45,000 bases of DNA from assembly GCF_031127815.1 (NCBI RefSeq), contig NZ_JARXHY010000014.1:1-45000 (forward strand), in the 5' to 3' direction. Below, piece after piece: positions 3,055-24,763 of the stretch. Both the position numbers and the translations under genes were made by a program. Source of the DNA: Pelagicoccus sp. SDUM812003 (GTDB lineage Bacteria; Verrucomicrobiota; Verrucomicrobiia; Opitutales; Opitutaceae). The stretch's first letter is position 1. The number at the start of each line of letters is the position of its first letter. Below the pieces are notes generated by a model. It made no database searches. It was not told the DNA's origin and saw only the letters and a program-made list of their open reading frames with translations.

Positions 3055-3219
3055 TCGTGGCCGAGCGCTTACTCCTCGTTCCCAAACATCAAAAACGGGC
3101 GCCGCGTGCAGACTTCATTACAAACCGGCAAAAAATCGCATCTCATGGAGACTTGCGCTAGCTTGTCCTCGCTTTTTTTCCACCAGCCTTGGTTGCTGTC
3201 ATTCAGTAGGCACGCCCCT

Positions 3220-3228
3220 TGCTAAAAT
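3220..3228 (+). promoter_or_regulatory. Possible extended -10 promoter ahead of the ATP-grasp/alpha-E cluster
   Basis: TGCTAAAAT fits the extended -10 pattern TGnTAtaaT and would put transcription start near 3235, giving a leader of about 65 bases to the ATG at 3301. No good -35 box accompanies it, as is usual for extended -10 promoters. The 246 bp between comM and the cluster hold no other feature I can support. Confidence 0.3.
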
Positions 3229-3300: not shown

Positions 3301-4740
3301 ATGAATATTCAGTACGACGTCGGCGAATTTTTCGACGAGATGTTCGAGAAGGACGGCTCGGTCCGTCCCCACTACCAAACCTTTTTGCAGCGCCTTTCGG
3401 AGCTCAGCGAAGACGCCTTTCACCAGAAGCGAGAAGCCATCGACTTGGCGTTCCTCCAGCAAGGCATCACCTTCACCGTCTACGGCGACGAGCAGAGCAC
3501 CGAGCGCATCTTTCCCTTCGACCTCATACCCCGCATCATCCCGGCTAGCGAATGGTCCCACCTTTCGGCTGGCCTGGAGCAGCGGCTGGTCGCCCTGAAT
3601 CTTTTCCTCAAGGACGTCTACAGCGATCAGAAGATCGTGAAGGACGGCGTGGTGCCCGCCGACATCCTCAACTCCTCCAAGCACTTCCGCAAGGAACTGG
3701 TGGGGCTGAAAGTGCCGAAGGACATCTACATCCACATCTGCGGCACCGACATGATTCGCGACGACAATGGCGACTACCTGGTGCTGGAGGACAACGGACG
3801 CTGCCCATCAGGCGTTTCCTACATGCTGGAGAACCGTCAGGCCATGAAGCGGGCGTTCCCGCGCTTCTTCAGCGACGCTGGGGTTCGCTCCGTTCTCGAA
3901 TACCCGCGCTACCTGCTCAACGCCCTCAAACACATCGCTCCGGAGGGCATCGACAATCCGACTGTGGCGGTGCTCACCCCGGGCGTATACAACAGCGCCT
4001 ACTTCGAGCATTGCTTCCTGGCCCGCCAAATGGGGGTAGAGATCGTGGAAGGCCGCGACCTGGTGGTGAACAACGACGATCGCGTCTACATGCGCACCAC
4101 CACCGGACTCAAGCGAGTCGATGTGCTGTATCGCCGCATCGATGACGATTTCATCGACCCCGAAGTCTTCCGAAAGGACTCCCTGCTCGGCGTGCCGGGA
4201 CTGGTGCGGGCCTACCGCAAAGGCAATCTCGGCCTGGCCAACGCTCTGGGAACCGGGGTGGCGGACGACAAGGTCATGTACTGCTTCGTGCCCGACATGA
4301 TAAAGTACTATCTCGACCAGGACCCGATCCTGCCCAACGTGCAGACCTGGCTTCCCTACCGCGAAGACGATCTCAAGTACACCTTGGAAAACACCGAGAA
4401 ACTGGTGATCAAAGCGGCCAACGAAGCGGGCGGCTACGGCATGCTGATCGGCCCGCACGCCACCAAGGAGGAGGTGGAGAAATTCCGAGTCATGGTGAAG
4501 GAGAAGCCGCGCGACTTCATCGCCCAGACCCCGATTTCCCTTTCCCGCCACCCCACCTTCACCAAGGACGGATTCGATGGTCGTCACATCGATCTTCGCC
4601 CCTACATCATCAGCGGCGAAACCACCGAGATCATCCCCGGCGGCCTGACGCGCGTCGCCCTTCGCAAAGGCTCGCTCGTGGTGAACTCGTCCCAAGGCGG
4701 AGGCAGCAAGGACACTTGGGTCCTCAGCACCGATTCCTAA
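3301..4740 (+). CDS. Circularly permuted ATP-grasp protein (CP_ATPgrasp)
   Basis: The 479-residue protein has no signal peptide or membrane segment and is probably cytosolic. It matches the circularly permuted ATP-grasp family (former DUF404/DUF407). Recognisable blocks are YDEMFE-type N-terminal [19 protein letters not shown] (about 9-27), [10 protein letters not shown] (about 57-66), [19 protein letters not shown] with E163-D164-N165, [20 protein letters not shown] (about 222-241), and the C-terminal [16 protein letters not shown]-grasp enzymes couple ATP hydrolysis to carboxylate-amine bond formation; comparative genomics has predicted amide or peptide ligation for this family, but I know of no firmly established substrate. 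It is followed 63 bp later by a stand-alone alpha-E gene and then by a fused version of both, all co-directional. The ATG has no Shine-Dalgarno sequence, but conserved sequence begins at once. Confidence 0.9.
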
Positions 4741-4803
4741 CCTGGCCCGTTTCGCCAACTTCACCTTCACTCACCCCACAGCTTTCACAAACTCTATCTC
4801 CCT

Positions 4804-5793
4804 ATGCTTTGCCGAGTCGCAGACAGTCTCTTCTGGATGAGCCGCTACATCGAACGGGCCGAAAACACCGTTCGTCTGGTGGACGTCACCTTGCAAACCT
4901 TGCTGGAATCCGAGTCGCAGGACCCTGAAACCAGCTACATCCACTGGTCCGCCATCCTGGCGTCGCTCGGCGATCTGGAGCTCTTCGAAAGCCTCGACCT
5001 GCCGCAAACCAGCCAAAGCGTCACCGAATTTCTCAGCTTCAATCGAGAGAACCCGAGTTCGGTCTTCAACTGCATCGCCCACGCCCGCGAGAACGCCCGC
5101 ATGATCCGCGACCAGATTTCCTCGGAAATGTGGGAAACCATCAATCGGCTCTACCTCTATTTGAAGAAAACCGACCCCAACGAGGTGTGCGGCGACATCG
5201 ATTTCGAGTTCTTCGAAACCATCAAGCAGTACTCGCTGCTCTTCCAAGGCATCACCGAAACCACTTTCCCGCACAAGCTCGGCTACGAGTTCATCTCCTG
5301 CGGACTCTATATCGAGCGGGCCGACAAGACCTGCCGCATCCTGGATGCGAAACGATACATGCCGATGCCCGAAAACGAGGATCAAGCCGCCGTGGGAGCA
5401 GCCCAGTGGTCCGCCATCCTCAAAGGCTGCAGCGCCTTCGACGCCTACCACCAGGAGTTCGTCGACGAGGTTCGCGGCCCATCGGTTCGCGCCTTCCTCA
5501 TGCTGTCCCGCGAATTTCCCCGATCCGTGCTCTATTGCCTCCGACGCCTGCAGGGAGCCATCCACGCCATTTCCGGATGTCCCATCACCCACTTCCAGAA
5601 CGAAGCGGAACGCAGGCTCGGCATGCTGATCTCGCGCCTTAACTACGCCACCGCCGCGGATCTGGAGCGAAGCAGCGCCAAGCGCCTGCTCTCCGACATC
5701 GAGGACGAACTGGCGGCGATCGCCATCGAGATCAGCGACCTCTACATGTTTTCGGAAATCGTCGATCCAGCCCTCGAGGTGGTGGAGTCCTAG
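4804..5793 (+). CDS. Alpha-E domain protein (DUF403)
   Basis: The 329-residue all-helical protein consists of a single alpha-E domain. The diagnostic N-terminus is MLCRVADSLFWMSRYIERAENTVRLVD, where the SLFWMSRYIERAEN block names the family; WSAILASLGD, ENARMIRDQISSEMWETINRLY and a second YIERADKTCRILD motif follow. Alpha-E proteins almost always sit beside or are fused to circularly permuted ATP-grasp proteins and are thought to work with them, perhaps holding substrate; no catalytic activity is established. It follows the ATP-grasp gene by 63 bp and is probably co-transcribed with it. The start is fixed by the conserved N-terminus even though the upstream sequence is pyrimidine-rich and lacks a Shine-Dalgarno motif. 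Confidence 0.92.
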   Translation: MLCRVADSLFWMSRYIERAENTVRLVDVTLQTLLESESQDPETSYIHWSAILASLGDLELFESLDLPQTSQSVTEFLSFNRENPSSVFNCIAHARENARMIRDQISSEMWETINRLYLYLKKTDPNEVCGDIDFEFFETIKQYSLLFQGITETTFPHKLGYEFISCGLYIERADKTCRILDAKRYMPMPENEDQAAVGAAQWSAILKGCSAFDAYHQEFVDEVRGPSVRAFLMLSREFPRSVLYCLRRLQGAIHAISGCPITHFQNEAERRLGMLISRLNYATAADLERSSAKRLLSDIEDELAAIAIEISDLYMFSEIVDPALEVVES

Positions 5794-5877
5794 CCCAGCC
5801 GCCCTCTCAAAAAGCTCCGACCGAACGCCCCCAGCCGTTTCGCCACCGCCTCGCCAGGCCTTGGGCGCCACTGTTAT

Positions 5878-5891
5878 TTGCAACGTTGCAA
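5878..5891. promoter_or_regulatory. Perfect 14-bp palindrome TTGCAACGTTGCAA, candidate operator
   Basis: A perfect dyad centred on CG lies 122 bp upstream of the ATP-grasp/alpha-E fusion start. Symmetric sites with a central CG and GCAA/TTGC arms resemble operators of LacI-family regulators, but no regulator gene is nearby. The second half overlaps a further GCAAC-AAAGC-GTTGC inverted repeat. Function is inference. Confidence 0.3.
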
Positions 5892-5904
5892 CAAAGCGTT
5901 GCCC

Positions 5905-5923
5905 CCCACGGCTAACCCGTGGG
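5905..5923. repeat. Intergenic hairpin CCCACGG-CTAAC-CCGTGGG
   Basis: A perfect 7-bp stem with a 5-base loop lies in the 220-bp gap between the alpha-E gene and the fusion gene. No T-run follows on either strand, so it is a poor intrinsic terminator. A REP-like dispersed palindrome is one possibility; only one copy is present in this window. Confidence 0.35.
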
Positions 5924-6013
5924 AACGGGGAACTCCTGATAAAAAAACGCTTCCCACCGCTACGCCGATAGGCATCCTAGCCTCACGCCCGGTTTCGCGG
6001 GCTCACCCGCCGA

Positions 6014-8578
6014 ATGCCCGACATAGACAACAGCAAGCCTTTGACTCGCAACTGGATGCGAGAGTACAGCCCGCCAGAGGGGTATTACGACGAGTACCTA
6101 GACGCCGAGGGCAAGCCGCGTCCCCATTGGGCTCGAATCTCGGACGCCTTCGGGCGCATCGACAAGGATTCCTGGAAGCGCCGCAAGCGCCAGCTCGATC
6201 GCCTGATTCAGGACAACGGCATCACCTACAACGTCTACGGCGAGAACAAGGCGCACCTGCACCCCTGGTCCATGGACCTGCTTCCTCACGTGCTCGGCCC
6301 AGAGGAAGTCGCCAAGATCGAGTCCGCGCTCTCGCAGCGGGCCACCCTGCTCAACATCGTGCTGGGCGACGTCTATGGGCGCCAGACCATGCTGCAGAGC
6401 AGCCGCATGCCGCCCTTTCTCATCTATTCGAACCCCAATTTCCTGCGCCCCTGCCACGGCCTGCTGTCTCCGCGATCCAAGCACATCCACCTGTACGCCG
6501 CGGACATATCCCGGGCTCCGGACGGGAACTGGTGGGTGTTGGGCGACCGAGTCGAGGCCGCCTCGGGCTTGGGCTACGCTCTGGAAAACCGCATGCTCTC
6601 CTCGCGCATCTTCCCTAAGATCATGTGGGAGGCCCGCACCCGGTCCTTGCAGCCCTTCATCAACGCCTTCACCCAGCACATCGAATCGCTCGCACCGCAG
6701 AACAGCAACAGCCCGAACATCGCTCTGCTGACCGCCGGGCCCAACAACGAGACCTACTTCGAGCAGTCGTTCCTCGCCCGCAATCTCGGCTACACGCTGG
6801 CGGAAGGGGCTGACCTGACGGTTCGCAACAACCGCCTCTACATGAAAACCATCGGTGGGGTGCAGCAGGTGGACGTGCTGCTTCGACGCATCGACTCCTC
6901 CTGGACCGACCCGCTGGAACTGCGAAACGAGTCGCTCATCGGCATCCCAGGTCTGGTCAACGCGGTGCGACAAGGCAACGTATCCATCGCCAACGCCCTA
7001 GGCTCCGGCTTCGTGGAGACCTCCGCCATGCTGGCCTTCCTGCCCTGGTTCTGCCGAAACTACTTGGGCGAGAATCTGGAGATGCCATCGGTCGCCACCT
7101 GGTGGTGCGGCCAGGAGAGCGAGCGCAAGTACGTGCTGGACAACCTGGACAACCTCGCCATCAAGCCGACCTTCTGGGGCCCGGGCGCCGCGTCGTACTT
7201 CGGCCCTTCTCTCTCCTCCAAGCAAAAGGAGGAGCTGGTCGCGAAGATCCACCGCTACCCGGAAAGCTTCTGCGGCCAGGAAATCGTGTCAAACGGTACC
7301 ATACCGGTCGACATCGACGGAGCGTTGCAGCCGCGCCACTTCCAGCTGCGGGTCTTCCTCGCCCCAACGGAGAACGGGTGGAAAATGATGCCCGGCGGCC
7401 TGCTGCGCTACGCCCAGGAGGAAAACGACGTGGTGGTCTCCATGCAGCAAGGCGGGGCGACCAAGGATACCTGGGCCCTGCGCTCGAAGTCGGACAAATC
7501 GGAGCGGAGCTACGGATCGAACCACGATCGCGTGGTGGTGGAGCGTCGGCACTACAACGACCTGCCCAGCCGCACCGCGGACAACCTCTTCTGGCTCGGC
7601 CGATACGTGGAGCGGGCCGAAGGACTGACCCGCGTGCTGCGCTCTCTCTGCTCCATGATGGTGGACGAAGCGGACCGCGAAACCCATCAGGCGGCCCTGC
7701 CTTTCCTGCGCCAGATCCTGCCCCCAGGCAGCGATACCAAAGCCTTCGTCGACCCGAAAACCGCCTCGCCCAACCTGGAAAAAGTGGAAAAGGCCATCAG
7801 CTTCGCCCTTTTCGAGGAAAAGAATCTGGAAAGCCTGGTCTCCAACTTCGCCAGCATCGATCGAGCCGCCAACAAGGCCAAGGAACGCCTCTCCAACGAA
7901 ACCTGGTTTCGCCTCACCGAGCTCAAGGAGCTGGCCCAAGCCTCGGTGGACAACATGCCCACCGTCTTCGACGACGAAACGCTCTACCTGCTGGACAAGA
8001 CGCTCGAAACCCTGGCCAGCTTCTCAGGCAACCTGGCGGAGAACACCACCCGCAGCCAGGGCTGGCGCTTTCTGGAGATCGGACGACGCCTCGAACGGGC
8101 CCTCTCCATTTCCTTTCTGCTCTCGGCGGCCTACAAGTCCACCGGTCCCAACGACGAGACCCTGGTGGCGAAGCTGCTCGAATGGGGCGACAGCTCCATC
8201 ACCTACCGCAGACGCTACCTCAACAACATGCTGGACACCAATCTGCTGGAGGTTCTCTGCTTCGACACCAGCAACCCGCGCTCGCTCGCCTTCCAAATCG
8301 AGCAGCTCCGCCACCTGCTAGAGAAGCTGCCGCACACCGTGAATTCCAAGCGCCACCCCATCGATCAAGCCGCCCTGCGTCTCTACAGCCGCATCGGCCT
8401 AAGCAGCCCTGAGCAGCTGATGAGTCGCGGACTCAACGCCGGCGGCTCCCTGCCCCTGCTCTCGTTTCTCGAGCAGACCAACGACGATCTGCTCATTCTC
8501 GCCCAGCGCCTGGAACAGTCCTATTTCGCTCACACCCAGGTCGCCCAGCAGCAAAAGTCCTACATGAACCTCGCCTGA
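6014..8578 (+). CDS. Fusion of circularly permuted ATP-grasp and alpha-E domains
   Basis: This 854-residue cytosolic protein joins both preceding domain types in one chain. Residues about 60-490 are a circularly permuted ATP-grasp domain (GITYNVYGENK, IALLTAGPNNETYFEQSFLA, SMQQGGATKDTWAL). Residues about 515-854 are an alpha-E domain starting LPSRTADNLFWLGRYVERAE. Where the separate paralogue reads [11 protein letters not shown] (E163-D164-N165), this one reads VLGDRVEAASG (G177-D178-R179), so the presumed acidic residues are not conserved. As I recall, fused members of the family commonly carry a related DR...SG version, which suggests a distinct specificity or a structural role. The next gene begins only 4 bp after its stop, so the two are probably translated together. 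The ATG at 6014 is plausible but has no clear ribosome binding site. Confidence 0.9.
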   Translation: MPDIDNSKPLTRNWMREYSPPEGYYDEYLDAEGKPRPHWARISDAFGRIDKDSWKRRKRQLDRLIQDNGITYNVYGENKAHLHPWSMDLLPHVLGPEEVAKIESALSQRATLLNIVLGDVYGRQTMLQSSRMPPFLIYSNPNFLRPCHGLLSPRSKHIHLYAADISRAPDGNWWVLGDRVEAASGLGYALENRMLSSRIFPKIMWEARTRSLQPFINAFTQHIESLAPQNSNSPNIALLTAGPNNETYFEQSFLARNLGYTLAEGADLTVRNNRLYMKTIGGVQQVDVLLRRIDSSWTDPLELRNESLIGIPGLVNAVRQGNVSIANALGSGFVETSAMLAFLPWFCRNYLGENLEMPSVATWWCGQESERKYVLDNLDNLAIKPTFWGPGAASYFGPSLSSKQKEELVAKIHRYPESFCGQEIVSNGTIPVDIDGALQPRHFQLRVFLAPTENGWKMMPGGLLRYAQEENDVVVSMQQGGATKDTWALRSKSDKSERSYGSNHDRVVVERRHYNDLPSRTADNLFWLGRYVERAEGLTRVLRSLCSMMVDEADRETHQAALPFLRQILPPGSDTKAFVDPKTASPNLEKVEKAISFALFEEKNLESLVSNFASIDRAANKAKERLSNETWFRLTELKELAQASVDNMPTVFDDETLYLLDKTLETLASFSGNLAENTTRSQGWRFLEIGRRLERALSISFLLSAAYKSTGPNDETLVAKLLEWGDSSITYRRRYLNNMLDTNLLEVLCFDTSNPRSLAFQIEQLRHLLEKLPHTVNSKRHPIDQAALRLYSRIGLSSPEQLMSRGLNAGGSLPLLSFLEQTNDDLLILAQRLEQSYFAHTQVAQQQKSYMNLA

Positions 8579-8582
8579 GGCT

Positions 8583-9461
8583 ATGGCACGCTACGACATC
8601 AAGCACAAGACGACCTACCGCTACGCGTTTCCCGTGAACGTGTCGCACCATTCAGCCCGTCTCCAGCCGCTCAGCGACGATCGGCAAAGCTGCGAGAGCT
8701 TTCAGCTAAACATCAGCCCCAGCAGCGTCGACCTGATCGAACGCATCGACTACTTCGGCAACACCATGCAGATGTTCTCCGTGCAGGAGCTGCACGAATC
8801 GCTGGAAGTCGAATCCCGCAGCAAGGTCATCGTGACCGCCGAGGCCCTCGATCTCAGCTCGCTGGACCTGAGCTGCGCCTTCTGCTCGGAGGCCATCAAC
8901 AACTTTCGCTTCCCCGACAACATTGACGCCAAGCAGTTCGTCTACGCGACCGATACCACGCAGCCAACCGACGAAGTGGAAGCCTTCGCTCGTCGCTTCG
9001 TTCAGCCGGAAGCGCCCATCGGCAAGGCGCTCTCGGACATGCTGGACGCCTTCGCCACCGAATTCACCTTCGACCCGACCGCCACCGAGGTCAGCACCCC
9101 CATCACCCAGGTGCTCGAACAGCGCAAAGGCGTTTGCCAGGACTTCGCCCACCTCATGATCTCCGCCCTGCGCAGCCAAGGCCTCGCCGCCCGCTACGTG
9201 AGCGGCTACATCCTCACCGAGCCGCCCGAAGGCCAGGAGCGCCTCGAGGGAGCAGACGCCTCCCATGCATGGCTATCGGTCTACGTTCCCAAAGAGGGCT
9301 GGATCGATGTGGATCCGACCAATCGTCTGGTCTGCGGCGATCAGCACATCCGAGTGAGCGTGGGACGCGACTACTTCGACGTCAGCATGCTCAAGGGCGC
9401 CGTGACCGGCGGGGGCGAACAAAAGCTGTCCGTCGAGGTCACGGTGCGTCCAGTCGACTAG
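8583..9461 (+). CDS. Transglutaminase-like cysteine protein with bacterial N-terminal domain
   Basis: The 292-residue protein has an N-terminal bacterial transglutaminase-like domain (YDIKHKTTYRYAFPVNVSHHSARLQP, about 3-85) and a papain-fold transglutaminase core. The apparent catalytic triad is C185 in KGVCQDFAH, H228 in ASHAWLSVYVP, and D244 in IDVDPTN. Such domains act as peptidases or amide-exchange enzymes; the substrate is unknown. No signal peptide is seen. It starts 4 bp after the fusion gene and so is very probably in the same operon. A short GAGG lies just upstream of the ATG. In many bacteria a gene of this type accompanies the ATP-grasp/alpha-E pair, which supports a shared pathway. 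Confidence 0.93.
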   Translation: MARYDIKHKTTYRYAFPVNVSHHSARLQPLSDDRQSCESFQLNISPSSVDLIERIDYFGNTMQMFSVQELHESLEVESRSKVIVTAEALDLSSLDLSCAFCSEAINNFRFPDNIDAKQFVYATDTTQPTDEVEAFARRFVQPEAPIGKALSDMLDAFATEFTFDPTATEVSTPITQVLEQRKGVCQDFAHLMISALRSQGLAARYVSGYILTEPPEGQERLEGADASHAWLSVYVPKEGWIDVDPTNRLVCGDQHIRVSVGRDYFDVSMLKGAVTGGGEQKLSVEVTVRPVD

Positions 9462-9621
9462 CGGTCTTCCGCCCGTGCCCAACCGAGCAGCGAGACGCCG
9501 GCGGTAAACGTCGAGCTGGGTAGTTCGTGCCTTGCCGAGGCTTCCCCCGCACCCTGACGAAACCTGTCACATCAGGCTCGTCACCCGCGAGCATGCACCC
9601 CCCGACACCATCCGCTGCACC

Positions 9622-11601
9622 ATGCATTCTCACCCCTTCGCCGCATTCACGTTCGCTGCCCTACTGTCCCTCCCGAGTTCCCTTTGGGGAGCCGCCGCCA
9701 TCGTTTTCGAGGCGGAAACCGGAGACGCTGGATCGCAAATGGCTACCATCACCCTCGACGGCGAATCCGCCATTTCCACCACCACCGACGGAGCTGGCAA
9801 CGCCCCCGCCACCGACGCTCGCGTGGTCAGCTACTCCGTCACCTTCACCGAAGCAGGCACCTACCAGCTCTACGCCAAGCTCTACGTCGGCCCGGGAGCC
9901 GCCAGCGACGACAGCTTTTTCTACGGCAACGGATTCGGATCCAAGGACGCCGGCGACGAGGCGGACTGGATCACCGTGAATCAACTGGCCAGCGGCATCG
10001 GCTCCACCGCGGCCGACGACTTCGTGCCTGGCGAGGGCGCCGCCAGCGGCGAGGTCTGGAAGTGGGTCATGCTCTCCGGCTACAGCGGAGGCGAAGACCC
10101 GGTCAACTTCGAAGTGCCTGCGGGCTCGCTGACGCAGACCCTGCAGATCGGGGCTCGCGAGGACGGCCTCTCCCTCGACAAGCTGGCCTTCGGGAAGGAC
10201 GGTTTCTACTACACGGTGGAAAATCTGGAAAACGGCGAGCACGGCACCGAAACCACGCCCAACGAGCCGTTCACTCCTACCGGTCCGCCCATCGCCACCG
10301 GCAAATGGAAGTTTCTGGGAAACGTCCACTCCTCCAACCAGCTGCAGGACTTCGAAGCCTACTGGAACCAGGTCACCCCGGAAAACGCCGGCAAATGGGG
10401 CAGCGTGGAAGGCGCCCGCGACGTCATGAATTGGGGCGGCCTCGACGCAGCCTACGATTTCGCCAAGGAAAACGGCTTCCTTTTCCGCATGCATGTCATG
10501 GTCTAGGGAGCCCAGCAGCCAGCTTGGATCAACGACCTGGAGCCCGCGGAGCAGCGCCAGGAGATCGAGGAATGGTTCGCCGAAGTGGCAGCTCGCTACA
10601 AGGACATCGACTACCTGGAGGTGGTGAACGAACCGCTTCATCAGGCCCCGGACGGCGGCGATACCGGAGTGGTATCGGGACGGGCCAACTACGTCGACGC
10701 TCTGGGAGGCGACGGCGAAACGGGCTGGGACTGGATCATCACCTCCTTCGAGCTGGCACGAGAATACTTTCCCGACACGCCCCTTGTCATCAACGACTAC
10801 GGCATCATCGGAAACGCTGCCGAAGTGCAGGACTACCTCGAGATCGTCGACCTGCTGAAGGAGCGCGACCTGATCGACATCATCGCCTTCCAGGCTCACG
10901 CCTTCTCCACTCGCGCCAGCGCCGATGTCCTGAAGGCCAACCTCGACACCCTGGCCAGCCGCGAGCTTCCGCTCATGGTCACCGAAATGGACGTCGACGG
11001 GGCCACCGACATCAGCCAGCTCTCCGACTACAAGAAGATCTTTTCCGTGTTCTGGCAGCATCCCGCGGTGATGGGCGTCACCCTTTGGGGCTTCCGCCCG
11101 GGGCTCTGGCGAAACGATCAAGGCGCCTATCTGGTGCTGGCCAACGGGGCCGAACGCCCCGCCATGAAATGGTTGAAGGACTACGTGGCGGAATTCGATC
11201 TGCCCACCTTCGATAGCTACCTGAGCGCCGAAGGACTCTCGGAGAGCGATCACGCCTTTGCAGCCGACTTCGACGGAGACGGCCGCCCTACTGGGCTCGA
11301 ATACCTGCTGGGCAGCGATCCAGAGTCGGCGGAGTTCCAACCGCCGCTCTGGACCCAGCAAGAGATGAGGAACGGCCTGACGATCAACGTCTCCAACCAA
11401 ATTCGAGACGGTCGCATCGTCATCCAAAGAAGCATGAATCTCTCCGATTGGGAGGACGTCGCCTCCTACGACCTGCTCTCCCGCTTCGCGGTCAAGCTAG
11501 ACGCGACACAGGGCGAGTTCAGTCTCCAACTCCAGTTCGACGCCTCCCTGGCCAGCGACAGCGACGAGGCGTTCTATCGTCTCGCCTACCGGAACCGCTA
11601 G
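9622..11601 (+). pseudogene. Secreted GH10 endo-1,4-beta-xylanase interrupted by one in-frame TAG
   Basis: The frame encodes a signal peptide (MHSHPFAAFTFAALLSLPSS...WGAAA), a beta-rich carbohydrate-binding-like domain (about 27-200), a GH10 xylanase domain (about 225-530), and a C-terminal tail with a DFDGDGRPTGLEYLLGSDP motif of the Ca-binding/sorting type common in this kind of bacterium. The acid/base glutamate is in VVNEP (E337) and the nucleophile in VTEMDVDG (E455), counting through. At codon 295 (10504-10506) TAG replaces what should be the conserved tryptophan TGG of the GH10 motif (RMHVMV-W-GAQQPAWI). It is a single G-to-A change, and the remaining 364 sense codons stay open. Without readthrough the product lacks both catalytic residues. 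A start at 9532 is open but would bury the signal peptide. It could be a recent pseudogene, an assembly error or genuine readthrough. Confidence 0.88.
10504..10506 (+). other. In-frame amber codon at the conserved GH10 tryptophan
   Basis: The context is GTC TAG GGA GCC. Reading frame, domain content and homology-like sequence continue unchanged on both sides. TAG also ends several intact genes in this window (for example at 5793, 9461, 15255, 20709 and 38806), so the codon is not reassigned genome-wide. Confidence 0.9.
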
Positions 11602-11692
11602 AGCTAGGCGGATCCGCTTTGGCCCCGGTTCCTCACCCAGACGAACGCTGCAGGATCTTTTCGGGGGCCTTCGCGCGTTTGGCGCGGGATTC

Positions 11693-11719
11693 GCAGGGAG
11701 GAGCGAAAAACCTCCTTGC
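11693..11719. terminator. Hairpin downstream of the xylanase gene, possible terminator
   Basis: GCAGGGAGG and CCTCCTTGC form a 9-bp stem with one G-U pair and the loop AGCGAAAAA, 92 bp after the xylanase stop. No T-run follows, so it would be weak as an intrinsic terminator. It may also act in the leader of the transglutaminase/DUF2126 gene. The rest of the 276-bp gap shows nothing I can name. Confidence 0.3.
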
Positions 11720-11877
11720 AATTCGTATCAGGACAAACCGACGCAATGACCGCGTGTCTTTTCAAGCGCCGCTCGCCGCTGCGCTTAAAAATTGCCATCG
11801 CGCCCATCCGGAGCAAACCTCTGCTCACTACAAGCCGCTCGCCCGTCCTCTAACCAACCACTCTCTCGAAAGCTCCT

Positions 11878-14800
11878 ATGGCTATCCGTGTCGCTCTTAG
11901 CCACAAAACCCACTATCACTACGATCGTCTGGTCACCCTTGGCCCGCAAGTCGTCCGACTGCGTCCCGCGCCCCACTCGCGCACGCCGATCGTCAGCTAC
12001 TCCCTCAAGGTCACGCCCAGCAAGCACTTCCTGAACTGGCAGCAAGACCCGCAAAGCAACTACCTGGCGCGACTGGTCTTCGAGGAGCAGACTCGCCACT
12101 TCGGCGTGGACGTCGATCTGGTGGTCGATCTCGCGCCCATCAACCCATTTGACTTCTTCCTAGAGGACAGCGTCGAAAAGTATCCCTTCATCTACTCCTC
12201 CAACGCCAAGCGAGAGCTCCGCCCCTATTTCGCCAAAACGGCGGCCACGCCTCGTCTCAAGGAGCTGGTCGCATCCTTCGATGAGGTGAAGGACGTGCGC
12301 ACCATCGACTTCCTCTCGATCGTGAACCAACGCATCAACGGCATGCTGCAGTACACCCTGCGAATGGATCCAGGCATCTTCACCCCGGAACGCACGCTCA
12401 AGGAAGGCAAAGGCAGCTGCCGTGACATGGCTTGGCTGATGGTTCACGTTTTCCGCCGCCTCGGCATAGCGGCTCGCTTCGTATCTGGATACTCCATACA
12501 GCTCGTAGCCGACGAAAAGCCGATCGATCCCAACGCTCCCGCCGGCGTGGCGGAAGACATCTGCGACCTGCACGCCTGGTGCGAAGTCTATCTTCCCGGA
12601 GCTGGCTGGATCGGTTTGGACGCGACCAGCGGGCTCTTCTGCGGCGAAGGGCACATCCCGCTCGCCGCTTCCGCCAACGCCAAGGAGGCCGCCCCGATCA
12701 CCGGCGGCGTCTCCCAATCCAAGTGCGAATTCGAAGTGGAAATGACCGTGACGCGCATCCACGAGGATCCCCGCGTCACCAAGCCCTACACCGAAGGCCA
12801 GTGGAAATCCATTCTCGAGCTCGGAGATGTAGTCGATCAGCGACTACAGAACGGGGACGTTCGTCTCAGCATGGGCGGCGAGCCGACCTTCGTCTCCAAT
12901 CGCGACCAGGAAGGCGAGGAATGGAATACCGGCGCCGTGGGCCCGACCAAGAAACCGCTATCCGAAAAGCTGATACGCCGCCTCCGAAGCCGCTTCGGCC
13001 CGGGCGGATTGCTTCACTATGGACAAGGGAAATGGTATCCCGGCGAGCCGCTGCCTCGCTGGGCATTGGGGCTCTATTGGCGCAAGGACGGCGTGCCGAT
13101 GTGGGCGAACGAAAAGCTGCTTGCGGACGAGTCTCGAGACTACGGATACACCCACAAGGATGCCAAGGAACTGGTCGACGAGATCACCCACCAGCTGAAG
13201 CTCGACGCGCGCTACATCAACACCGCCTACGAGGATCCCGTCAAATTCTCCCTGCGCGAACGCGAACTCCCGGTGAACGTGGACCCGCTGGATAGTCGAC
13301 TGGAGGACCCGCAGGAGCGCGAGCAGCTGCTCAAGGTTTTCAGCCGAGGGCTCAACACTCCCGTAGGCTACGTTCTCCCCGTGGAGCGGACTTACAATTA
13401 CGACGGCCCCACCTGGCAAAGCGGCATCTGGATGCTGCGCGGCCATCGGCTCTACCTCACTCCCGGCGACTCGCCCCTCGGCCTGCGCCTTCCGCTAGAA
13501 AGCCTGCCTTGGGTTTCCAAGGAGGAGTATCCCTACGTCTACCCAGCCGATCCTTCGGCCCCTTGGCGCCCTCAGCTCCCTTCGCGTCGAGCCATGATCG
13601 TGCCCCAGCTCCCGGAGGATGATTCCAAGGGACGAATGGAGAAGAAGGCGAAAGAGGAAAAGAGAAAGGCTGCGGAGAGCTTCGAGGAGGTATTGGAGGA
13701 GCAACGACAAAACTCGATTCCCCAAGTGGGCGAGTCGGCCCCTTGGGTCGTGCGCACGGCGCTGTGCGTCGAGCCGCGTCAAGGTCGCCTCTACATCTTC
13801 CTCCCTCCCGTATCCAACATCGAAGACTACCTCGACCTTCTCACCGCGATCGAACACGCGGCGGAGATCACCGGAAAGTCCATCATCATCGAAGGCTATA
13901 CGCCGCCGCACGATCCAAGAATCGAATACATGAAGATCACTCCTGACCCGGGCGTCATGGAGGTGAACATACAACCCGCGTACTCATGGAGGGAGATGGT
14001 GCGCAATACGCAGATCATCTACCAGGAAGCCCGCCAATTGGAGTTGGGCACGGACAAGTACCAGCTCGACGGACGCCATACGGGGACCGGAGGTGGCAAC
14101 CACATCGTGGTGGGAGGCTCCACCCCTGCGGACTCGCCTTTCCTGAGACGCCCCGACGTACTGAAGTCGCTGATCGGCTTCTGGTTCAACCACCCCTCTC
14201 TCAGCTACCTCTTCAGCGGGCTGTTCATCGGACCGACTTCCCAGGCCCCGAGAGCGGACGAGGGACGTCCGGACGCGGCATACGAGATGGACATCGCTTT
14301 TCGTCAGGTCCCACGCTACGGCGAGGGCAGCATCCCTCCGTGGCTGGTCGACCGCATTTTCCGTCATCTGCTGACTGACCTGACCGGCAATACGCACCGA
14401 GCGGAGTTCTGCATCGACAAGCTCTTCTCGCCCGACAGCGCCACCGGACGTCTCGGGCTAGTGGAATTTCGCGGCTTCGAGATGCCGCCGCACGCCCGCA
14501 TGAGCCTCACGCAGCAGCTGCTGCTTCGCGCCATCATCGCCCACTTTTGGGAGACTCCCTACGAAGCGCCGCTCACCCGCTGGCTCACTCAGCTGCACGA
14601 TCGCTTCCTGCTGCCCCATTTCGTGCGCGAGGACTTCAAGAAGGTGATCGATCGGCTGCACAACGCGAACTTCCCCTTCCAGCTCGACTGGTTCACCACT
14701 CACTTCGAATTTCGATTCCCCATCATCGGGAAGGTCACCTACGACAACGTATCCATCGAACTGAGACAGGCGATAGAGCCGTGGCTCGTGCTCGGCGAGG

Positions 14801-15255
14801 AAGCGGGCGGCGGAGGCACGGCGCGCTATGTCGACTCCTCCATCGAGCGACTGCAGGTTCTGGTGAGCGGACTCAACGAAACCGCTCAAGCCATCTCGGT
14901 GAACGGTATCGAACTTCCCCTTACACCCACTGGCAATCCGGGCGAATACGTGGCAGGCGTGCGCTACCGAGCGTGGCAGCCGCCGAGCTGCTTGCACCCC
15001 ACCATCCCGGTGCACGCGCCTTTGGTCTTCGATTTGATCGATCGCTACAACTCCCACGCCATCGGCGGCTGCACCTACTACGTGAGCCATCCAGGCGGGC
15101 GAAGCCACGAGACCTTCCCGGTCAACGCCTTGGAAGCCGAGACGAGGCGGGCGGAGCGTTTCAACAGTTTCGGGCATACGCCCGGTCCATTCCAGATGCG
15201 CACCATCCCGCGCAGCCCGGAATTCCCCGTGACGCTGGACCTCAGACGGCAGTAG
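11878..15255 (+). CDS. Large transglutaminase/DUF2126 amidoligase protein
   Basis: The 1125-residue cytosolic protein has an N-terminal bacterial transglutaminase-like domain (about 1-85), a transglutaminase core with triad C181 (GKGSCRDMAW), H232 (DLHAWCEVYLP) and D248 (IGLDATSG), and a long C-terminal DUF2126 region (about 320-1120). DUF2126 is annotated as a putative amidoligase of the glutamine synthetase/glutamate-cysteine ligase type; blocks seen include LSMGGEPTFVS, GPGGLLHYGQGKWYPG, GRHTGTGGGNHIVVGG, EFRGFEMPPHARMSLTQQLL and GGCTYYVSHPGGRSHETFPV. It thus combines an ATP-dependent ligase-like and a peptidase-like activity. It is the last plus-strand gene of the cluster, and its 3' end overlaps the convergent hybrid kinase gene by 14 bp. 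The ATG has no Shine-Dalgarno sequence, but the conserved VALSHKTHYHYDR begins at residue 4. Confidence 0.93.
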   Translation: MAIRVALSHKTHYHYDRLVTLGPQVVRLRPAPHSRTPIVSYSLKVTPSKHFLNWQQDPQSNYLARLVFEEQTRHFGVDVDLVVDLAPINPFDFFLEDSVEKYPFIYSSNAKRELRPYFAKTAATPRLKELVASFDEVKDVRTIDFLSIVNQRINGMLQYTLRMDPGIFTPERTLKEGKGSCRDMAWLMVHVFRRLGIAARFVSGYSIQLVADEKPIDPNAPAGVAEDICDLHAWCEVYLPGAGWIGLDATSGLFCGEGHIPLAASANAKEAAPITGGVSQSKCEFEVEMTVTRIHEDPRVTKPYTEGQWKSILELGDVVDQRLQNGDVRLSMGGEPTFVSNRDQEGEEWNTGAVGPTKKPLSEKLIRRLRSRFGPGGLLHYGQGKWYPGEPLPRWALGLYWRKDGVPMWANEKLLADESRDYGYTHKDAKELVDEITHQLKLDARYINTAYEDPVKFSLRERELPVNVDPLDSRLEDPQEREQLLKVFSRGLNTPVGYVLPVERTYNYDGPTWQSGIWMLRGHRLYLTPGDSPLGLRLPLESLPWVSKEEYPYVYPADPSAPWRPQLPSRRAMIVPQLPEDDSKGRMEKKAKEEKRKAAESFEEVLEEQRQNSIPQVGESAPWVVRTALCVEPRQGRLYIFLPPVSNIEDYLDLLTAIEHAAEITGKSIIIEGYTPPHDPRIEYMKITPDPGVMEVNIQPAYSWREMVRNTQIIYQEARQLELGTDKYQLDGRHTGTGGGNHIVVGGSTPADSPFLRRPDVLKSLIGFWFNHPSLSYLFSGLFIGPTSQAPRADEGRPDAAYEMDIAFRQVPRYGEGSIPPWLVDRIFRHLLTDLTGNTHRAEFCIDKLFSPDSATGRLGLVEFRGFEMPPHARMSLTQQLLLRAIIAHFWETPYEAPLTRWLTQLHDRFLLPHFVREDFKKVIDRLHNANFPFQLDWFTTHFEFRFPIIGKVTYDNVSIELRQAIEPWLVLGEEAGGGGTARYVDSSIERLQVLVSGLNETAQAISVNGIELPLTPTGNPGEYVAGVRYRAWQPPSCLHPTIPVHAPLVFDLIDRYNSHAIGGCTYYVSHPGGRSHETFPVNALEAETRRAERFNSFGHTPGPFQMRTIPRSPEFPVTLDLRRQ

Positions 15256-18200
15256 CGCGCCAGTCCTCGCGTTCCAGAAGATGCTTGCGCACCGTCTCCA
15301 GAAAGTAGCGGTGATTGATCGGCTTGGTCACGCAGTCGTCGAATCCAGCGAGACGTAGGGATTCGCGGTCGCTCATCAAGGCGTGGGCGGTCAGGGCGAC
15401 CGCGGGAATGCCAGGCGCATGCTTGCGGATCTCTTCCAGGGCCCGATACCCGTCCATCACCGGCATGGCGATGTCGAGCAGCAGCAGATCGATCTGCGAT
15501 TCCTTCTTTCGAAACAAGTCGAGGGCCTGCTGCCCGTCCGCACCGCGATAGAGCTTGGCATTGGTCGGAGCGAGAAAGCGTTCGACCACCTGGTAGTTGC
15601 TATCCACGTCCTCCGCGATCAGGATGGATTTCCCCGTCAGGTCCAACTCCACGATGCGAGGCTCCTCGCGGCGCGGTCCCTTTCGATCGTTCGCCTGCTC
15701 CTTCACCTTCACGAGCGAAATGCCGACGGTGAAGGTGGAGCCCAGTCCCTTTTGGGACTCGAGATCGAGCGTGTAGCCGAGCTGATCCGCCAGACGCTGA
15801 CTGATCGCCAGCCCCAAGCCCGTACCACGCACCTTCGGCCGGTTGTTGTCGCTATCAGCGAGCTTGTAGAACCGGCGAAAGACCGCCTGCTGCTCCTCCT
15901 CGGCGATGCCGATTCCGGTGTCCTTGATGGAAAACAGCACTCGATTGATCGACCTCTCGAATCGCGCGATCAACGAAATGGAGCCCGATTCGGTGAACTT
16001 GCAGGCGTTGGTGACGAAGTTGGTCAGGATCTGTCGCAAGCGAACGCGATCGGTCTCGAAGAGCAGATCGACCTCTTCCGGCAGCCGACAGTCCGCCGCG
16101 AACGCTACCTTGCCCTGAGTCCGGCTCTCCACGATTTGCACAAACTCGAAACACATCTCCTCGAAGAAACGCCTCGCCTCCAGCGGCTCCGGAAAGACAT
16201 CGAGCTGATCCGATTCGATCATGGAAAGATCGATGATGTCGTCCAGCAGCTGGGCCAGCATCTCCGTGTTTTCTCGAATCCGGTCGCTGAACTCCTCGTA
16301 CTCGCCATTGCCGCGCGCCTCCATGGCGATGAGGTTTGAGAATCCCATGATCGCGTTGAGGGGCGTGCGGATCTCGTGCGACATGTTGGCGAGAAACGCG
16401 GATTTCAACTGGTCCGATTCCTCCGCCTTCTCCTTGGCTCGCAGCAAAGCGCCGGTGCGCTCCTCGATCAGGTCCTCCAAATGCTCGCGATGCCGCATTA
16501 GCTCCTTGTTCTGGGCCGCCAGCTCCTCCTTGGCCGAAGCGAGCTCCCTGGTTCGATCGGCCACCTTCTCGGCAAGCTGGATACCCGACCGCTTCAGGGC
16601 GTAAGTGCGCGCCTTGTAGATGCCGACGAAAACCAGAGCGACCGAAATCGCGATCAGCGATCGGAACCAAGGCGTCATCCACCAAGGCGGCAGGATATTG
16701 ACCGCAAGCCGCGTTTCCGAATCGGACCAGATCCCATCGCGGTTGGTGGACTTGACGCGAAAAACGTATTTCCCCGGATCGACGCGGGTGTAGATAGCTT
16801 GGTCGTCGCCCTTGCTCGATCGCCATTCCTGATCGTACCCATCAAGCAGATACCTGTACTCTATGTCCTTGCTTTTCGGATACGACAGCGCCGAGAAGCC
16901 GAATCCGATGACGGGATGCCCATACTCCAAGTCAAGCTCTCTGAGAAGAAAGGGCTGGACAGGCAGGTCGACCGCCGAGTCGTTCGGAAGGATCCGACGA
17001 TTGAGAACGTAGAGATTCGTCAAAAGCACCTTGGGAAAACTCTCGTCTACCGCCATCTGATCGGGCTTGAATCGAGTGAGCCCTTGAGTGCTTCCGACGT
17101 AAATTTCTCCAGAGTCGGCGACGAAGCTAGAGCGCTTGACGAACTCGACGCCTCCCAAGCCATCGCTCCGGCCGAAACTGATGAAATGCGGATCCTCCTC
17201 GGCAGCGATCCCGTTCACGAATTTGCTGAGCCCCTTGTTCGTGGTCATCCAAAGGTTTCCACGCTCGTCCTCCGAAATCGAACGGATGGAATTGTTTGGC
17301 AGTCCGTGGCGAGTGGTGAAGCGGGTGTGCGACCCACTCACCGGATCGAACTTGAATAGCCCCACCTCCGTGCCGAGCCAGATCTGGTCACGACTGTCCA
17401 CGAAGACCACCTCCAAATCACCGTTGTTGCGTCCGATAGGCTCCCCAGTGTGGCTGAAATGAGCGACCTCCCAAGTCTCCGGATCCAGACGATCCAGACC
17501 GGAGTACAATGATATCCAGAGCATCCCATCGGCAGTTTGCGCGATATCGTTTATGAAGGCGCTGTTGAGCGATTTGGGGTCGGCGGGGATATGAGTGATG
17601 CTTTCGAACCGTTTGGTGTCGTAATGGAAACGATTCAGGCCCGCGCCGACCGTTCCGACCCAAAGCCGCCGCTCGCTGTCCTCGAATATGGTGAACACGT
17701 TGTCGCCGCTCAAGCTGCCCGTATCCTCCGGATCATGACGAAAGACTTCGAAATCGTCCGTGTTCGGGTCATAGCGGCTCAACCCTCCATCCCAAGCGCC
17801 CACCCAAAGGTATCCCCTTGTGTCTCGAAAGATCGAATACACAGCATTGCCACCGAGCGAACGCGGATCCGACTCGTCCGCGAGATAGTGAACGACCTCG
17901 CCCGACTCCGAGTCCTGGCGCAGCAGCCCCATTTCCGTACCCAGCCACAGTTGCTCGGATTCGACGAGAATCGCGTTCACCTGGTCGCTGGTTTCCTTGT
18001 TCGGAGACAGCCCCGTCGGTCTAGTGGTCACGAAAATATCGTTGCGCGGCGAATAGAAGCTCAACCCATTGGAATAGGTCCCAATCCAAACATGGCCATC
18101 CACGTCCTGAAAGATCGATTCGATACTGTTGCCGCTTATGCTCGAAGGGTCGTATTGGTCCCACCGATACAGCTCCTTGGATCGCTCTTCATCGCGAAAC

Positions 18201-19057
18201 ACCTCCAAATCGCTGACTTCGATACCTAGGCCCTGGCCATGGCCGATCCACACGCGGTTTTCACGGTCCAGCATCAAGCGATGCACGCTGCCTTCTCGAA
18301 CAAAACGGGCGTCTTCGAAAGCGCGACTGCCGGATTCGCAGCGAAAAAGCCCTTCCCGGGCTCCTATCCAGACCGTGCCCCAAGGATCCTCCATGATCGT
18401 CTCGACCTGCGACTCGCTCAGCAGGCTTTCATTGCCTTCGGCATCCCGAATGCGCACGAAGACATCCTCTTGCGGCAGGTAGACCGAAACGCCGAGCTGC
18501 GTGCCGACCCAGATGCGACCCAGACGATCTTCGTGGACCCGCCAAACGATGTTGCTGCTGAGGCTGCGCTGATTCTCCGCGTCGTGAACGAAGAGCCTCT
18601 GCCCTTTTCCGTCGATTCGCCAAAGCCCATTTGGCGTGCAAAACCAAAGCTCGCCGGTGCTCGATTTCAACATGCTGCCCACCGTTTCCTCACCCATCGG
18701 CGCGAAGCGGGCGAACCAGTCCTTGGCGCTGTCGTAGCGGTAGACGCCCGCCAGCGTGCAGACCCAGAGGATGCCCTTGGGGTCCACGTAGATGTCGTTG
18801 ATCGACCCGTTGCCGAGACCTCGCGCGTTCGCCGTCTCTGGGCTGTAGATCCGAAACTCCCGACCGTCGTAGCGATTCAAGCCATCCTTGGTCCCAAACC
18901 ACATAAAGCCGTTCTCGTCCTGGTTGATGGTTTGCACCCAGCTCTGGGAGAGGCCATCTTCGACGCCGAGGCGGGCGAAGCGCTTGGTTTCGTCGAAACC
19001 GAACGCTCCATTGAGCGTCAGCGCCATAACGAACCAGATGGAAAACCAGCGGGGCAT
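15242..19057 (-). CDS. Hybrid two-component sensor kinase (Reg_prop propellers, Y_Y_Y, HisKA, HATPase, receiver)
   Basis: The 1271-residue inner-membrane protein has a signal sequence (MPRWFSIWFVMALTLNGAFG) and then about 14 Reg_prop motifs of the type GFMWFGTKDGLNRYDG. These would make two seven-bladed propellers in the periplasm (about 30-680). A Y_Y_Y domain follows (YRYLLDGYDQEW, about 730-785), then one membrane helix (about 795-815), a coiled coil, HisKA with H894 in NMSHEIRTPLN, HATPase with GTGLGLAIS, and a receiver whose D1195 is in LLLDIAMPVMDG. Related hybrid kinases of Bacteroidetes sense sugars and end in an AraC-type DNA-binding domain. This one has none, so its output must pass to another protein. 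No ligand can be named. It lies divergent from a second kinase gene. The start lacks a Shine-Dalgarno sequence but is supported by the signal peptide. Confidence 0.93.
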   Translation of the reverse strand: MPRWFSIWFVMALTLNGAFGFDETKRFARLGVEDGLSQSWVQTINQDENGFMWFGTKDGLNRYDGREFRIYSPETANARGLGNGSINDIYVDPKGILWVCTLAGVYRYDSAKDWFARFAPMGEETVGSMLKSSTGELWFCTPNGLWRIDGKGQRLFVHDAENQRSLSSNIVWRVHEDRLGRIWVGTQLGVSVYLPQEDVFVRIRDAEGNESLLSESQVETIMEDPWGTVWIGAREGLFRCESGSRAFEDARFVREGSVHRLMLDRENRVWIGHGQGLGIEVSDLEVFRDEERSKELYRWDQYDPSSISGNSIESIFQDVDGHVWIGTYSNGLSFYSPRNDIFVTTRPTGLSPNKETSDQVNAILVESEQLWLGTEMGLLRQDSESGEVVHYLADESDPRSLGGNAVYSIFRDTRGYLWVGAWDGGLSRYDPNTDDFEVFRHDPEDTGSLSGDNVFTIFEDSERRLWVGTVGAGLNRFHYDTKRFESITHIPADPKSLNSAFINDIAQTADGMLWISLYSGLDRLDPETWEVAHFSHTGEPIGRNNGDLEVVFVDSRDQIWLGTEVGLFKFDPVSGSHTRFTTRHGLPNNSIRSISEDERGNLWMTTNKGLSKFVNGIAAEEDPHFISFGRSDGLGGVEFVKRSSFVADSGEIYVGSTQGLTRFKPDQMAVDESFPKVLLTNLYVLNRRILPNDSAVDLPVQPFLLRELDLEYGHPVIGFGFSALSYPKSKDIEYRYLLDGYDQEWRSSKGDDQAIYTRVDPGKYVFRVKSTNRDGIWSDSETRLAVNILPPWWMTPWFRSLIAISVALVFVGIYKARTYALKRSGIQLAEKVADRTRELASAKEELAAQNKELMRHREHLEDLIEERTGALLRAKEKAEESDQLKSAFLANMSHEIRTPLNAIMGFSNLIAMEARGNGEYEEFSDRIRENTEMLAQLLDDIIDLSMIESDQLDVFPEPLEARRFFEEMCFEFVQIVESRTQGKVAFAADCRLPEEVDLLFETDRVRLRQILTNFVTNACKFTESGSISLIARFERSINRVLFSIKDTGIGIAEEEQQAVFRRFYKLADSDNNRPKVRGTGLGLAISQRLADQLGYTLDLESQKGLGSTFTVGISLVKVKEQANDRKGPRREEPRIVELDLTGKSILIAEDVDSNYQVVERFLAPTNAKLYRGADGQQALDLFRKKESQIDLLLLDIAMPVMDGYRALEEIRKHAPGIPAVALTAHALMSDRESLRLAGFDDCVTKPINHRYFLETVRKHLLEREDWRATAV

Positions 19058-19359
19058 GGTAGGAATAGAGGTGAGACGTGCTGCCGGGGCTCGCCGCGAA
19101 GGTCGCGAGCGTCCCGTGCGTGGTACGGCTAGAGATAGAGAAGACGAAGCGCCTCAGTTTCCACCCGTAAAACGCCTATGCCACCCTTCGTCGGTATGTT
19201 TATCGGGATATTTACACCTCTCTTTGCCGCCTCGCTTGATTCCAAAGTCGCCTACCCGAAGCTTCCCCTAGGCGACCTACGTATCCCGAGATTTCATTTC
19301 AAAACCCGTATGGCCTTCCCGGCTCGCAAAGCCTATCGCTAGGAAACGCCTTCTCATCC
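19058..19359. other. 302-bp divergent intergenic region with nested inverted repeats
   Basis: This gap separates two divergently transcribed kinase genes and should hold both promoters. It contains a perfect 8-bp pair TCGGGATA (19203-19210) / TATCCCGA (19282-19289) enclosing another perfect pair GTCGCCTA (19247-19254) / TAGGCGAC (19269-19276). A GACGAAG/CTTCGTC pair lies further upstream. No open frame in it looks real. The repeats could form a structured leader for the plus-strand kinase or be protein-binding sites; I match them to no known riboswitch. Confidence 0.4.
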
Positions 19360-20709: not shown

Positions 20710-20730
20710 CGCCGCGCCACTCAGGACCGA

Positions 20731-20759
20731 GCGGTTCGAAAGCGCCATCCTCGAACCGC
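20731..20759. terminator. Hairpin between convergent kinase and putA genes, probable bidirectional terminator
   Basis: A perfect 9-bp stem, GCGGTTCGA/TCGAACCGC with an 11-base loop, sits in the 85-bp gap between two convergent stop codons, where a shared terminator is expected. There is no T-run on either side, so termination may be weak or Rho-assisted. Confidence 0.45.
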
Positions 20760-20794
20760 GATCCAAACCAGCGTCCGACAAGGCGGAAGCGCTC

Positions 20795-24475: not shown

Positions 24476-24650
24476 TATCCGTATCGCAGCCCTCCCCACG
24501 TTTTCCCTTCGATCGCAGGCGGCAGACTGGCTCTTTCCCTAGCAGACGACATTCCACCACAACTGATTGTGACGAATTAGTCCGCGACTCCAACCAATCG
24601 AACTTTTCAAACGGATCAAGGAAAGCCGCTTCTTTTCTTTCGGATCCGCC

Positions 24651-24668
24651 GATTCGTATGTACGAATC
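24651..24668. promoter_or_regulatory. Dyad GATTCGTA-TG-TACGAATC between putA and ald, candidate operator
   Basis: Two perfect 8-bp half sites separated by TG lie 96 bp from the ald start and 176 bp from the putA start. The position and symmetry suit a dimeric regulator controlling one or both amino-acid catabolic genes. No regulator gene is adjacent and the motif is not one I can assign to a named family. Confidence 0.4.
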
Positions 24669-24729
24669 CCCTACAAGCGAGCCCCGCGAGACTCGAGAAA
24701 GCGCCATATGATCAAAATCGCTCCGCTGC

Positions 24730-24757
24730 TTGAGAGCGGCTTCGAACTTGCTATGCT
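24730..24757 (+). promoter_or_regulatory. Sigma-70-like promoter ahead of ald (TTGAGA, 16 bp, TATGCT)
   Basis: A -35-like TTGAGA (24730-24735) and a -10-like TATGCT (24752-24757) are spaced by 16 bp. Transcription would begin about seven bases after the -10, at the A of the ald ATG (24764), implying a leaderless mRNA. This agrees with the absence of any Shine-Dalgarno sequence there. Both hexamers have mismatches, so it remains a candidate. Confidence 0.4.
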
Positions 24758-24763
24758 TTTCCC

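Follow-up and report, generated by a model that had tools for sequence, protein, structure and literature searches.

A probable pseudo-ligase and a sigma-54-type promoter-like site in an ATP-grasp, Alpha-E, transglutaminase and DUF2126 gene cluster of Pelagicoccus sp. SDUM812003

The 45 kb window studied here (the whole stretch of DNA, 45,000 nucleotides, from Pelagicoccus sp. SDUM812003) contains, within the analysed stretch 3301..15255, a cluster of five co-directional genes that encode ATP-grasp, Alpha-E, transglutaminase-like and DUF2126 domains. The cluster is an intact example of an amidoligase system that had already been predicted, and the analysis adds two points: the ATP site is lost from the fused ATP-grasp ligase of every relative examined, and a sigma-54-type switch is predicted at the start of the cluster. 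The chances are judged about equal for and against the cluster encoding a cytosolic system, induced by nitrogen limitation, by which amide bonds of the peptide or isopeptide kind are formed and trimmed.

Organization of the cluster

Domains were called with Pfam profiles, and all matches lay above the curated cut-offs, which confirmed the five co-directional genes and the domains named in an earlier note made from the letters of the window. In the order of the window, and all on the forward strand, a stand-alone circularly permuted ATP-grasp ligase of 479 residues (3301..4740; PF14403, CP_ATPgrasp_2, 8.6e-160) is followed by a stand-alone Alpha-E protein of 329 residues (4804..5793; PF04168, 3.1e-86), by a circularly permuted ATP-grasp domain fused to Alpha-E, a predicted pseudo-ligase of 854 residues (6014..8578; PF14403, 9.1e-137, and PF04168, 2.8e-64), by a transglutaminase-like papain-fold protein of 292 residues with a Cys-His-Asp triad (8583..9461; PF08379, Bact_transglu_N, and PF01841, Transglut_core, 6e-23), and, after an interposed glycoside hydrolase (GH10) gene, by a transglutaminase-like domain fused to a DUF2126 amidoligase domain, 1125 residues in all (11878..15255; PF09899, 1303 bits, and PF08379/PF01841). 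The domain and triad matches are far beyond chance. None of the five cluster proteins had a match in NCBIfam. As judged by a reading of the open reading frames (ORFs), the cluster is predicted to be cytosolic.

A predicted active and a probably silent ATP-grasp ligase

Motif counts were taken from one MAFFT alignment of 70 stand-alone and 105 fused ATP-grasp proteins. Of these, 37 stand-alone and 33 fused proteins came from the phylum sample (145 evenly drawn genomes, the window's genome included), the genus and the window, and 33 and 72, respectively, came from a wider set of 80 loci, the best 80 of at least 593 relatives from a genome-contig scan; because the 80 loci were picked by DUF2126 similarity, they over-represent loci like the window's.

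The stand-alone ligase of the window keeps E163-x-N165 (codons 3787-3795) and a GGYG loop. The E-x-N pair was present at 163/165 in 70/70 stand-alone copies versus 0/105 fused copies, and the glycine loop in 69/70 (the remaining copy has an unknown residue there) versus 0/105. In the fused protein of the window, the pair is replaced by G177-D-R179 (codons 6542-6550) and the glycine loop is gone. Among the fused copies, Glu was found in 7/105 and Asn in 0/105 at these positions, with Arg at the Asn position in 81/105; the DDK, D431 and NSSQ positions were mostly altered, and K384 was retained in 69/105. Since five other residues (R193, D299, N327, G330 and D485, window numbering) were retained in 105/105 fused copies, the fused ATP-grasp domain is under selection. 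A reading with two working ATP-grasp ligases was not borne out, the catalytic motif being gone from every fused copy examined. The earlier note had named the lack of an ATP site in both ligase folds as evidence that would speak against it; the site was found to be absent from the fused protein and present in the stand-alone one.

In a tree of 175 tips, the stand-alone and fused proteins split cleanly, with 0 tips misplaced and a local support of 1.0, and the fused form made up one clade. The stand-alone ATP-grasp protein is closely related to PDB 3n6x (E 1.5e-171), which was the sole strong match when the PDB was searched by profile with the active ligase. An AlphaFold2 model of the fused protein (mean predicted local distance difference test score, pLDDT, 84.5) was matched by Foldseek to 3n6x with a template modelling (TM) score of 0.88 by target length, the further matches being glutathione and homoglutathione synthetases, YgiC/YjfC, Gss and Cp1B (9cjn). 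In the K-12 Gss sequence, the letters D, E and N were confirmed at 318, 330 and 332, residues which we take to be Mg ligands of E. coli Gss, and E330-x-N332 has the same form as E163-x-N165.

By the E-x-N pair and the glycine loop, the stand-alone protein (3301-4740) is a predicted active ligase; by the same two motifs, the fused protein (6014-8578) is predicted to be inactive, though its fold is kept. As the motif is lost in all 105 copies, the fused form is a single clade and the fold is retained, the fused ATP-grasp/Alpha-E protein is probably a conserved pseudo-ligase. In a literature search that did not extend to the founding 2009 paper, no discussion of a degenerate fused ligase or of sigma-54 control in this lineage was found; no priority over Iyer et al. 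2009 is claimed for the pseudo-ligase.

Sigma-54-type sites and the nitrogen context

The promoter scan counted matches to 11 consensus bases upstream of approximate gene starts, and its scores report a sequence match only. Control genes were mechanical ORFs of at least 150 residues from the same loci, and related genomes were counted at full weight. The best-scoring sigma-54-type site of the 45 kb window was a (-24/-12) promoter-like site, AGGCACGCCCCTTGC, at 3208..3222 on the forward strand, which matches 10/11 consensus bases and lies 93 bp upstream of the first gene. Sites scoring at least 9/11 were found upstream of the stand-alone ATP-grasp gene in 21/37 same-phylum copies, compared with 1/37 in the antisense direction, 2.8% of shuffles and 18/451 control genes (p 1.2e-16 versus 21/37). 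When the 80-locus set was scanned at the same threshold, sites were observed upstream of the ATP-grasp gene in 21/33 cases (antisense 5/33) and upstream of the transglutaminase-DUF2126 gene in 43/80 (antisense 9/80). A weaker sigma-54-like site of the window, TGGCGCGGGATTCGC (11680..11694, forward strand, 9/11), which is suggestive only, lies 198 bp upstream of the displaced DUF2126 gene.

Sigma-54 is encoded in 8/8 genomes of the genus. In the same 8/8 genomes, amt adjoins the P-II gene (amt-glnK) and stands behind a 10-11/11 sigma-54-type site; these amt genes are 64-100% identical to that of the window's genome (Pfam family checked).

Upstream of the sigma-54-type site of amt, at about -180 to -240 from the gene start (L188-L195), a conserved dyad resembling CGCTCAAATTYGAGCG and a second, weaker copy were observed in 8/8 genus genomes, and this dyad is probably a nitrogen activator site. 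Relative to the first gene of the cluster, four genus mates (L050-L053) carry a dyad like CGATCAACTTTGATCG at about -155; it precedes the sigma-54-like site by about 60 bp and has a form close to that of the amt dyad.

Published data, as given in the available excerpts of the papers cited, assign related operons to nitrogen-limitation or NtrC regulons. The genes I35_5080-83 of B. cenocepacia H111 were NtrC- and sigma-54-dependent, with changes of -6.0 to -9.4 in an ntrC mutant (PMC5491218). In P. putida under nitrogen limitation, PP_2686-2688 were up 11- to 37-fold over three columns, and PP_2685 merely 1.1- to 4.8-fold (PMC7801951); PP_2685 and PP_2688 were also higher on nitrate than on ammonium (PMC8050072), and a table on nutrient limitation gives PP2685-2687 as raised (PMC3325844). 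An RpoN study tabulates a sigma-54-type site for a CP_ATPgrasp gene of Bradyrhizobium (PMC13207237), and in marine metagenomes these domains fell into one group with urea metabolism (PMC3597751). The excerpt on nodule competition in S. meliloti lists a COG2308 regulatory region and gives no mechanism. Further literature leads (the Rlo operon, Caulobacter hvyA, the K. pneumoniae phosphoproteome, M. tuberculosis locus tags and a papain-like survey) had no bearing on the system, and COG numbers led to no paper.

Alpha-E, transglutaminase-like and DUF2126 proteins

No solved relative of Alpha-E was found by phmmer up to E 1. The Cys-His-Asp triads are intact in both transglutaminases of the window, as the earlier note had stated, and across 213 aligned transglutaminase copies Cys was found in 209/213 (Ser in 4), His in 213/213 and Asp in 213/213. 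The DUF2126 protein gave weak matches to solved structures, which covered its transglutaminase part only. When its model was searched with Foldseek, all 50 matches listed were glutamine synthetases, and they were weak (best E 0.010, TM score at most about 0.3 by target); this model-based result agrees with the Pfam name but is no proof of it. A second, shorter type of DUF2126 protein, in which several segments of the profile are missing and which often occurs apart from its transglutaminase domain, was seen in other genomes (G046, G052, G055, G098, G126, G135, G138, G147 and others).

Distribution and gene order

DUF2126 was found in 21 genomes of the phylum sample, Alpha-E in 35 and CP_ATPgrasp_2 in 36 (35 above the cut-off). 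The co-conservation that the earlier note had proposed to look for was observed, given that all 21 DUF2126 genomes were among the 35/145 with Alpha-E (hypergeometric p ~2e-16). That note's reading of amide ligases acting with papain-like enzymes gained support from this co-occurrence and from the glutathione-synthetase-like fold, and weakly from the glutamine-synthetase-like one. By title, the 80 loci of the wider set, which is rich in Pseudomonas and Burkholderiales, belong to Pseudomonadota, Planctomycetes, Acidobacteria, Desulforhopalus and relatives, Verrucomicrobia and Kiritimatiellales. The fused ATP-grasp/Alpha-E gene was present in 72/80 of these DUF2126 loci, and at least two of the remaining eight are cut by contig ends. 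Within the genus, DUF2126 was found in 7/8 genomes and Alpha-E in 7/8.

Five genus mates share a single gapless order, namely ATP-grasp, Alpha-E, transglutaminase-DUF2126, ATP-grasp/Alpha-E fusion and transglutaminase. The window puts DUF2126 last, whereas in most relatives seen the transglutaminase-DUF2126 gene directly precedes the fusion. The stand-alone ATP-grasp gene adjoins the stand-alone Alpha-E gene in the window, and the two lie within 300 bp of each other in 36/37 same-phylum copies (in L069 the neighbour fell below the score cut used). Similarly, a transglutaminase gene lies within 300 bp of 26/33 same-phylum fusions, as it also does in the window (6014-9461). The fusion gene was found within 5 kb of 15/26 same-phylum DUF2126 genes, and the set is often split in the phylum sample. 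In the genus mate G001, four genes stand together on one contig, and DUF2126 is on another (L054:5270-15273), divergent from gltBD. An extra divergent copy in genome G085 (L027:5504-12159) has unusually long frames, one of 1905 residues with DUF2126 and one of 1098 residues with ATP-grasp and Alpha-E.

Interposed and flanking genes

The sixth co-directional gene of the stretch, a GH10 glycoside hydrolase gene at 9622..11601 on the forward strand, sits between the transglutaminase and DUF2126 genes and was placed outside the system. Its frame is interrupted by an in-frame TAG (10504-10506), and the PF00331 matches flank this codon, with profile positions 27-82 running up to the stop and 86-310 resuming just past it; the gene may be a pseudogene, carry a sequencing error or be recoded. 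Neither GH10 piece had a match in any other locus searched. The earlier note was silent on this gene, and the promoter evidence for nitrogen limitation came after it. Beyond the cluster, window positions 15242-25897 encode a Reg_prop hybrid histidine kinase, a second histidine kinase, a PutA-type proline dehydrogenase/aldehyde dehydrogenase and then an alanine dehydrogenase (24764-25897).

Discussion

In the proposed mechanism, RNA polymerase with sigma-54 would start transcription of the cluster from the 3208 site at nitrogen shortage. The stand-alone ATP-grasp enzyme would then phosphorylate a carboxylate and join it to an amine, like glutathione synthetase and the peptide-spermidine ligases, a step to which its family, its motif and its solved close relative point. 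The fused ATP-grasp/Alpha-E protein, whose metal/ATP residues are lost, would act as a catalytically silent partner which holds the substrate or uses the Alpha-E domains to regulate the active ligase. DUF2126 may be a second amidoligase of the glutamine-synthetase type, as its weak fold matches suggest, and the two transglutaminase-like enzymes, with their complete triads, would hydrolyse or transfer the amide product. A bolder version, to which we give somewhat less than an even chance, is that a pair of one active and one dead ligase is kept in every group sampled, that the ancient pseudo-ATP-grasp/Alpha-E protein senses or holds the substrate, and that sigma-54 activates the system under nitrogen starvation so that amide nitrogen is sequestered or recycled.

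A number of results weigh against a nitrogen-regulated amide ligase system. Of the same-phylum copies, 16/37 scored below 9; the genus mates reached 8-9/11, with sites at -94 to -96 in four of them, at -24 in L055 and at -52 in G001, and the second G007 copy scored just 7/11. The strict sigma-54 pattern occurred at 25 sites genome-wide versus 27 in the reversed control, and because it is not commoner than in that control, a single sigma-54-type site proves little alone. An activator dyad common to amt and the window's cluster was rejected, the amt dyad not being recognisable in the window's promoter. The NtrC equivalog model had no match reaching its cut-off in 8/8 genus genomes. Nitrogen-gene neighbours as a general rule were likewise rejected: among 142 stretches, amt was found in 1, gltB in 2 and gltD in 2, while the P-II query of this search was cut with approximate coordinates, so that its absence of matches is uninformative. 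Expression of the Anbu operon is described as unchanged under various other conditions in the available part of one paper (PMC5666114), and since the P. putida operon is of the Anbu type and lacks DUF2126, B. cenocepacia is the only measured case with a DUF2126-like set. On the enzymatic side, no sequence similarity was detectable between the active ligase and E. coli Gss (best E 0.69 with BLASTP, probability 0.1 with hhalign), and sequence homology of the two was rejected; the putative Mg role of E163 and N165 is drawn from the form of the motif, not from a ligand-bound structure. The DUF2126 model is of moderate quality (mean pLDDT 72.6), and no substrate, product or phenotype is known for the system.

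It is also conceivable, though improbable, that nothing about the cluster is nitrogen-specific, the sigma-54-like sites being part of regulons for other stresses. Sigma-54 serves many regulons, and the 78 matches to the NtrC model in the window's genome all fell below the cut-off; however, nitrogen-limitation induction or NtrC dependence has been published for two genera (PMC8050072, PMC5491218, PMC7801951 and PMC3325844, as excerpted), and the amt genes of the genus stand behind the same type of promoter. Activity of the fused ATP-grasp domain through a changed metal/nucleotide site, in which Arg takes the place of the former Asn, would fit the conservation of this substitution (81/105), the five invariant residues and the partial retention of K384, but it is doubtful, given that no fused copy retains the E-x-N pair or the GGxG loop and most of the DDK, D431 and NSSQ positions are altered.

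The enzymes might instead serve protein tagging: the ligases would couple a peptide or an amino acid to proteins, and the papain-like enzymes (joined by Anbu in other genomes) would take the tag off again or break down the protein that carries it, as ubiquitin and deubiquitinases do. Tagging has been proposed for the related Anbu operon, according to the available text of PMC6376114, and two ligase types do occur with cysteine-protease folds in one cluster. We consider it unlikely, however: a search of the window's genome with PF00227 (proteasome family) gave no match, proteasome-family proteins were found in just 9/145 genomes of the phylum sample, no tag substrate is known, and in the same text Yersinia Anbu did not act as a peptidase on any substrate tested, nor were specific partners detected. 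Less probable still is a natural product (an oligopeptide or a ribosomally synthesized and post-translationally modified peptide), for which the ligases would build a small diffusible peptide that the transglutaminase-like enzymes cut or cyclise. Glutathione-synthetase-like folds do make natural products, such as that of Cp1B (9cjn; PMC12568646, in part), but a reading of the cluster ORFs, made without a dedicated search, brought to light no gene for a precursor peptide, an exporter or resistance. Moreover, when neighbour ORFs of 141 loci were clustered, no widely shared extra gene was found beyond histidine kinases (17 loci), the other clusters reflecting synteny at genus or family level, mostly in Pseudomonas or Comamonadaceae, and the wide distribution suits general metabolism better.

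The gene families are conserved over several phyla, and no established function for them was found in the literature consulted. For the nitrogen-regulated amide ligase system set out above, the probable status of one ligase as a conserved pseudoenzyme tells which protein should be assayed and which should be treated as a partner, and the tie to sigma-54 and nitrogen limitation names a condition under which the product and phenotype can be sought, so that a function long listed as unknown becomes open to direct experiment.

Comparison with known systems

The prediction of the ATP-grasp/Alpha-E/transglutaminase core is credited to Iyer et al. 2009 in the available text of three papers (PMC6376114, PMC5666114 and PMC3597751). 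The word "undescribed" in the earlier note does not hold for this core, which is an accepted predicted system, and release of phosphate from ATP has been assayed and shown for a Yersinia ATP-grasp homologue (PMC6376114, in part). The core gene families of that predicted amidoligase system are the same as those of the window, which differs from relatives of this type in having DUF2126 last, behind the GH10 gene. DUF2126 is reportedly part of the 2009 prediction; a literature search found no paper naming it.

The Anbu operon of Yersinia and Pseudomonas has ATP-grasp, Alpha-E and transglutaminase genes in common with the window, and nitrogen-limitation induction has been reported for that of P. 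putida. Identity with this operon was rejected, in that the window's genome had no PF00227 match, and the window adds the ATP-grasp/Alpha-E fusion and DUF2126. Gss and YgiC/YjfC, the latter named as peptide-spermidine ligases in a reference title (PMC12568646), share the glutathione-synthetase-type ATP-grasp fold with the window's ligase; Gss, a fused amidase/synthetase by annotation, has no detectable sequence similarity to it. The genes I35_5080-83 of B. cenocepacia resemble those of the window, with DUF404/407 (circularly permuted ATP-grasp), DUF403 (Alpha-E), a transglutaminase and a large transglutaminase-domain protein (PMC5491218, as excerpted) that is likely a DUF2126 fusion; the regulation was measured there, whereas it is predicted here.

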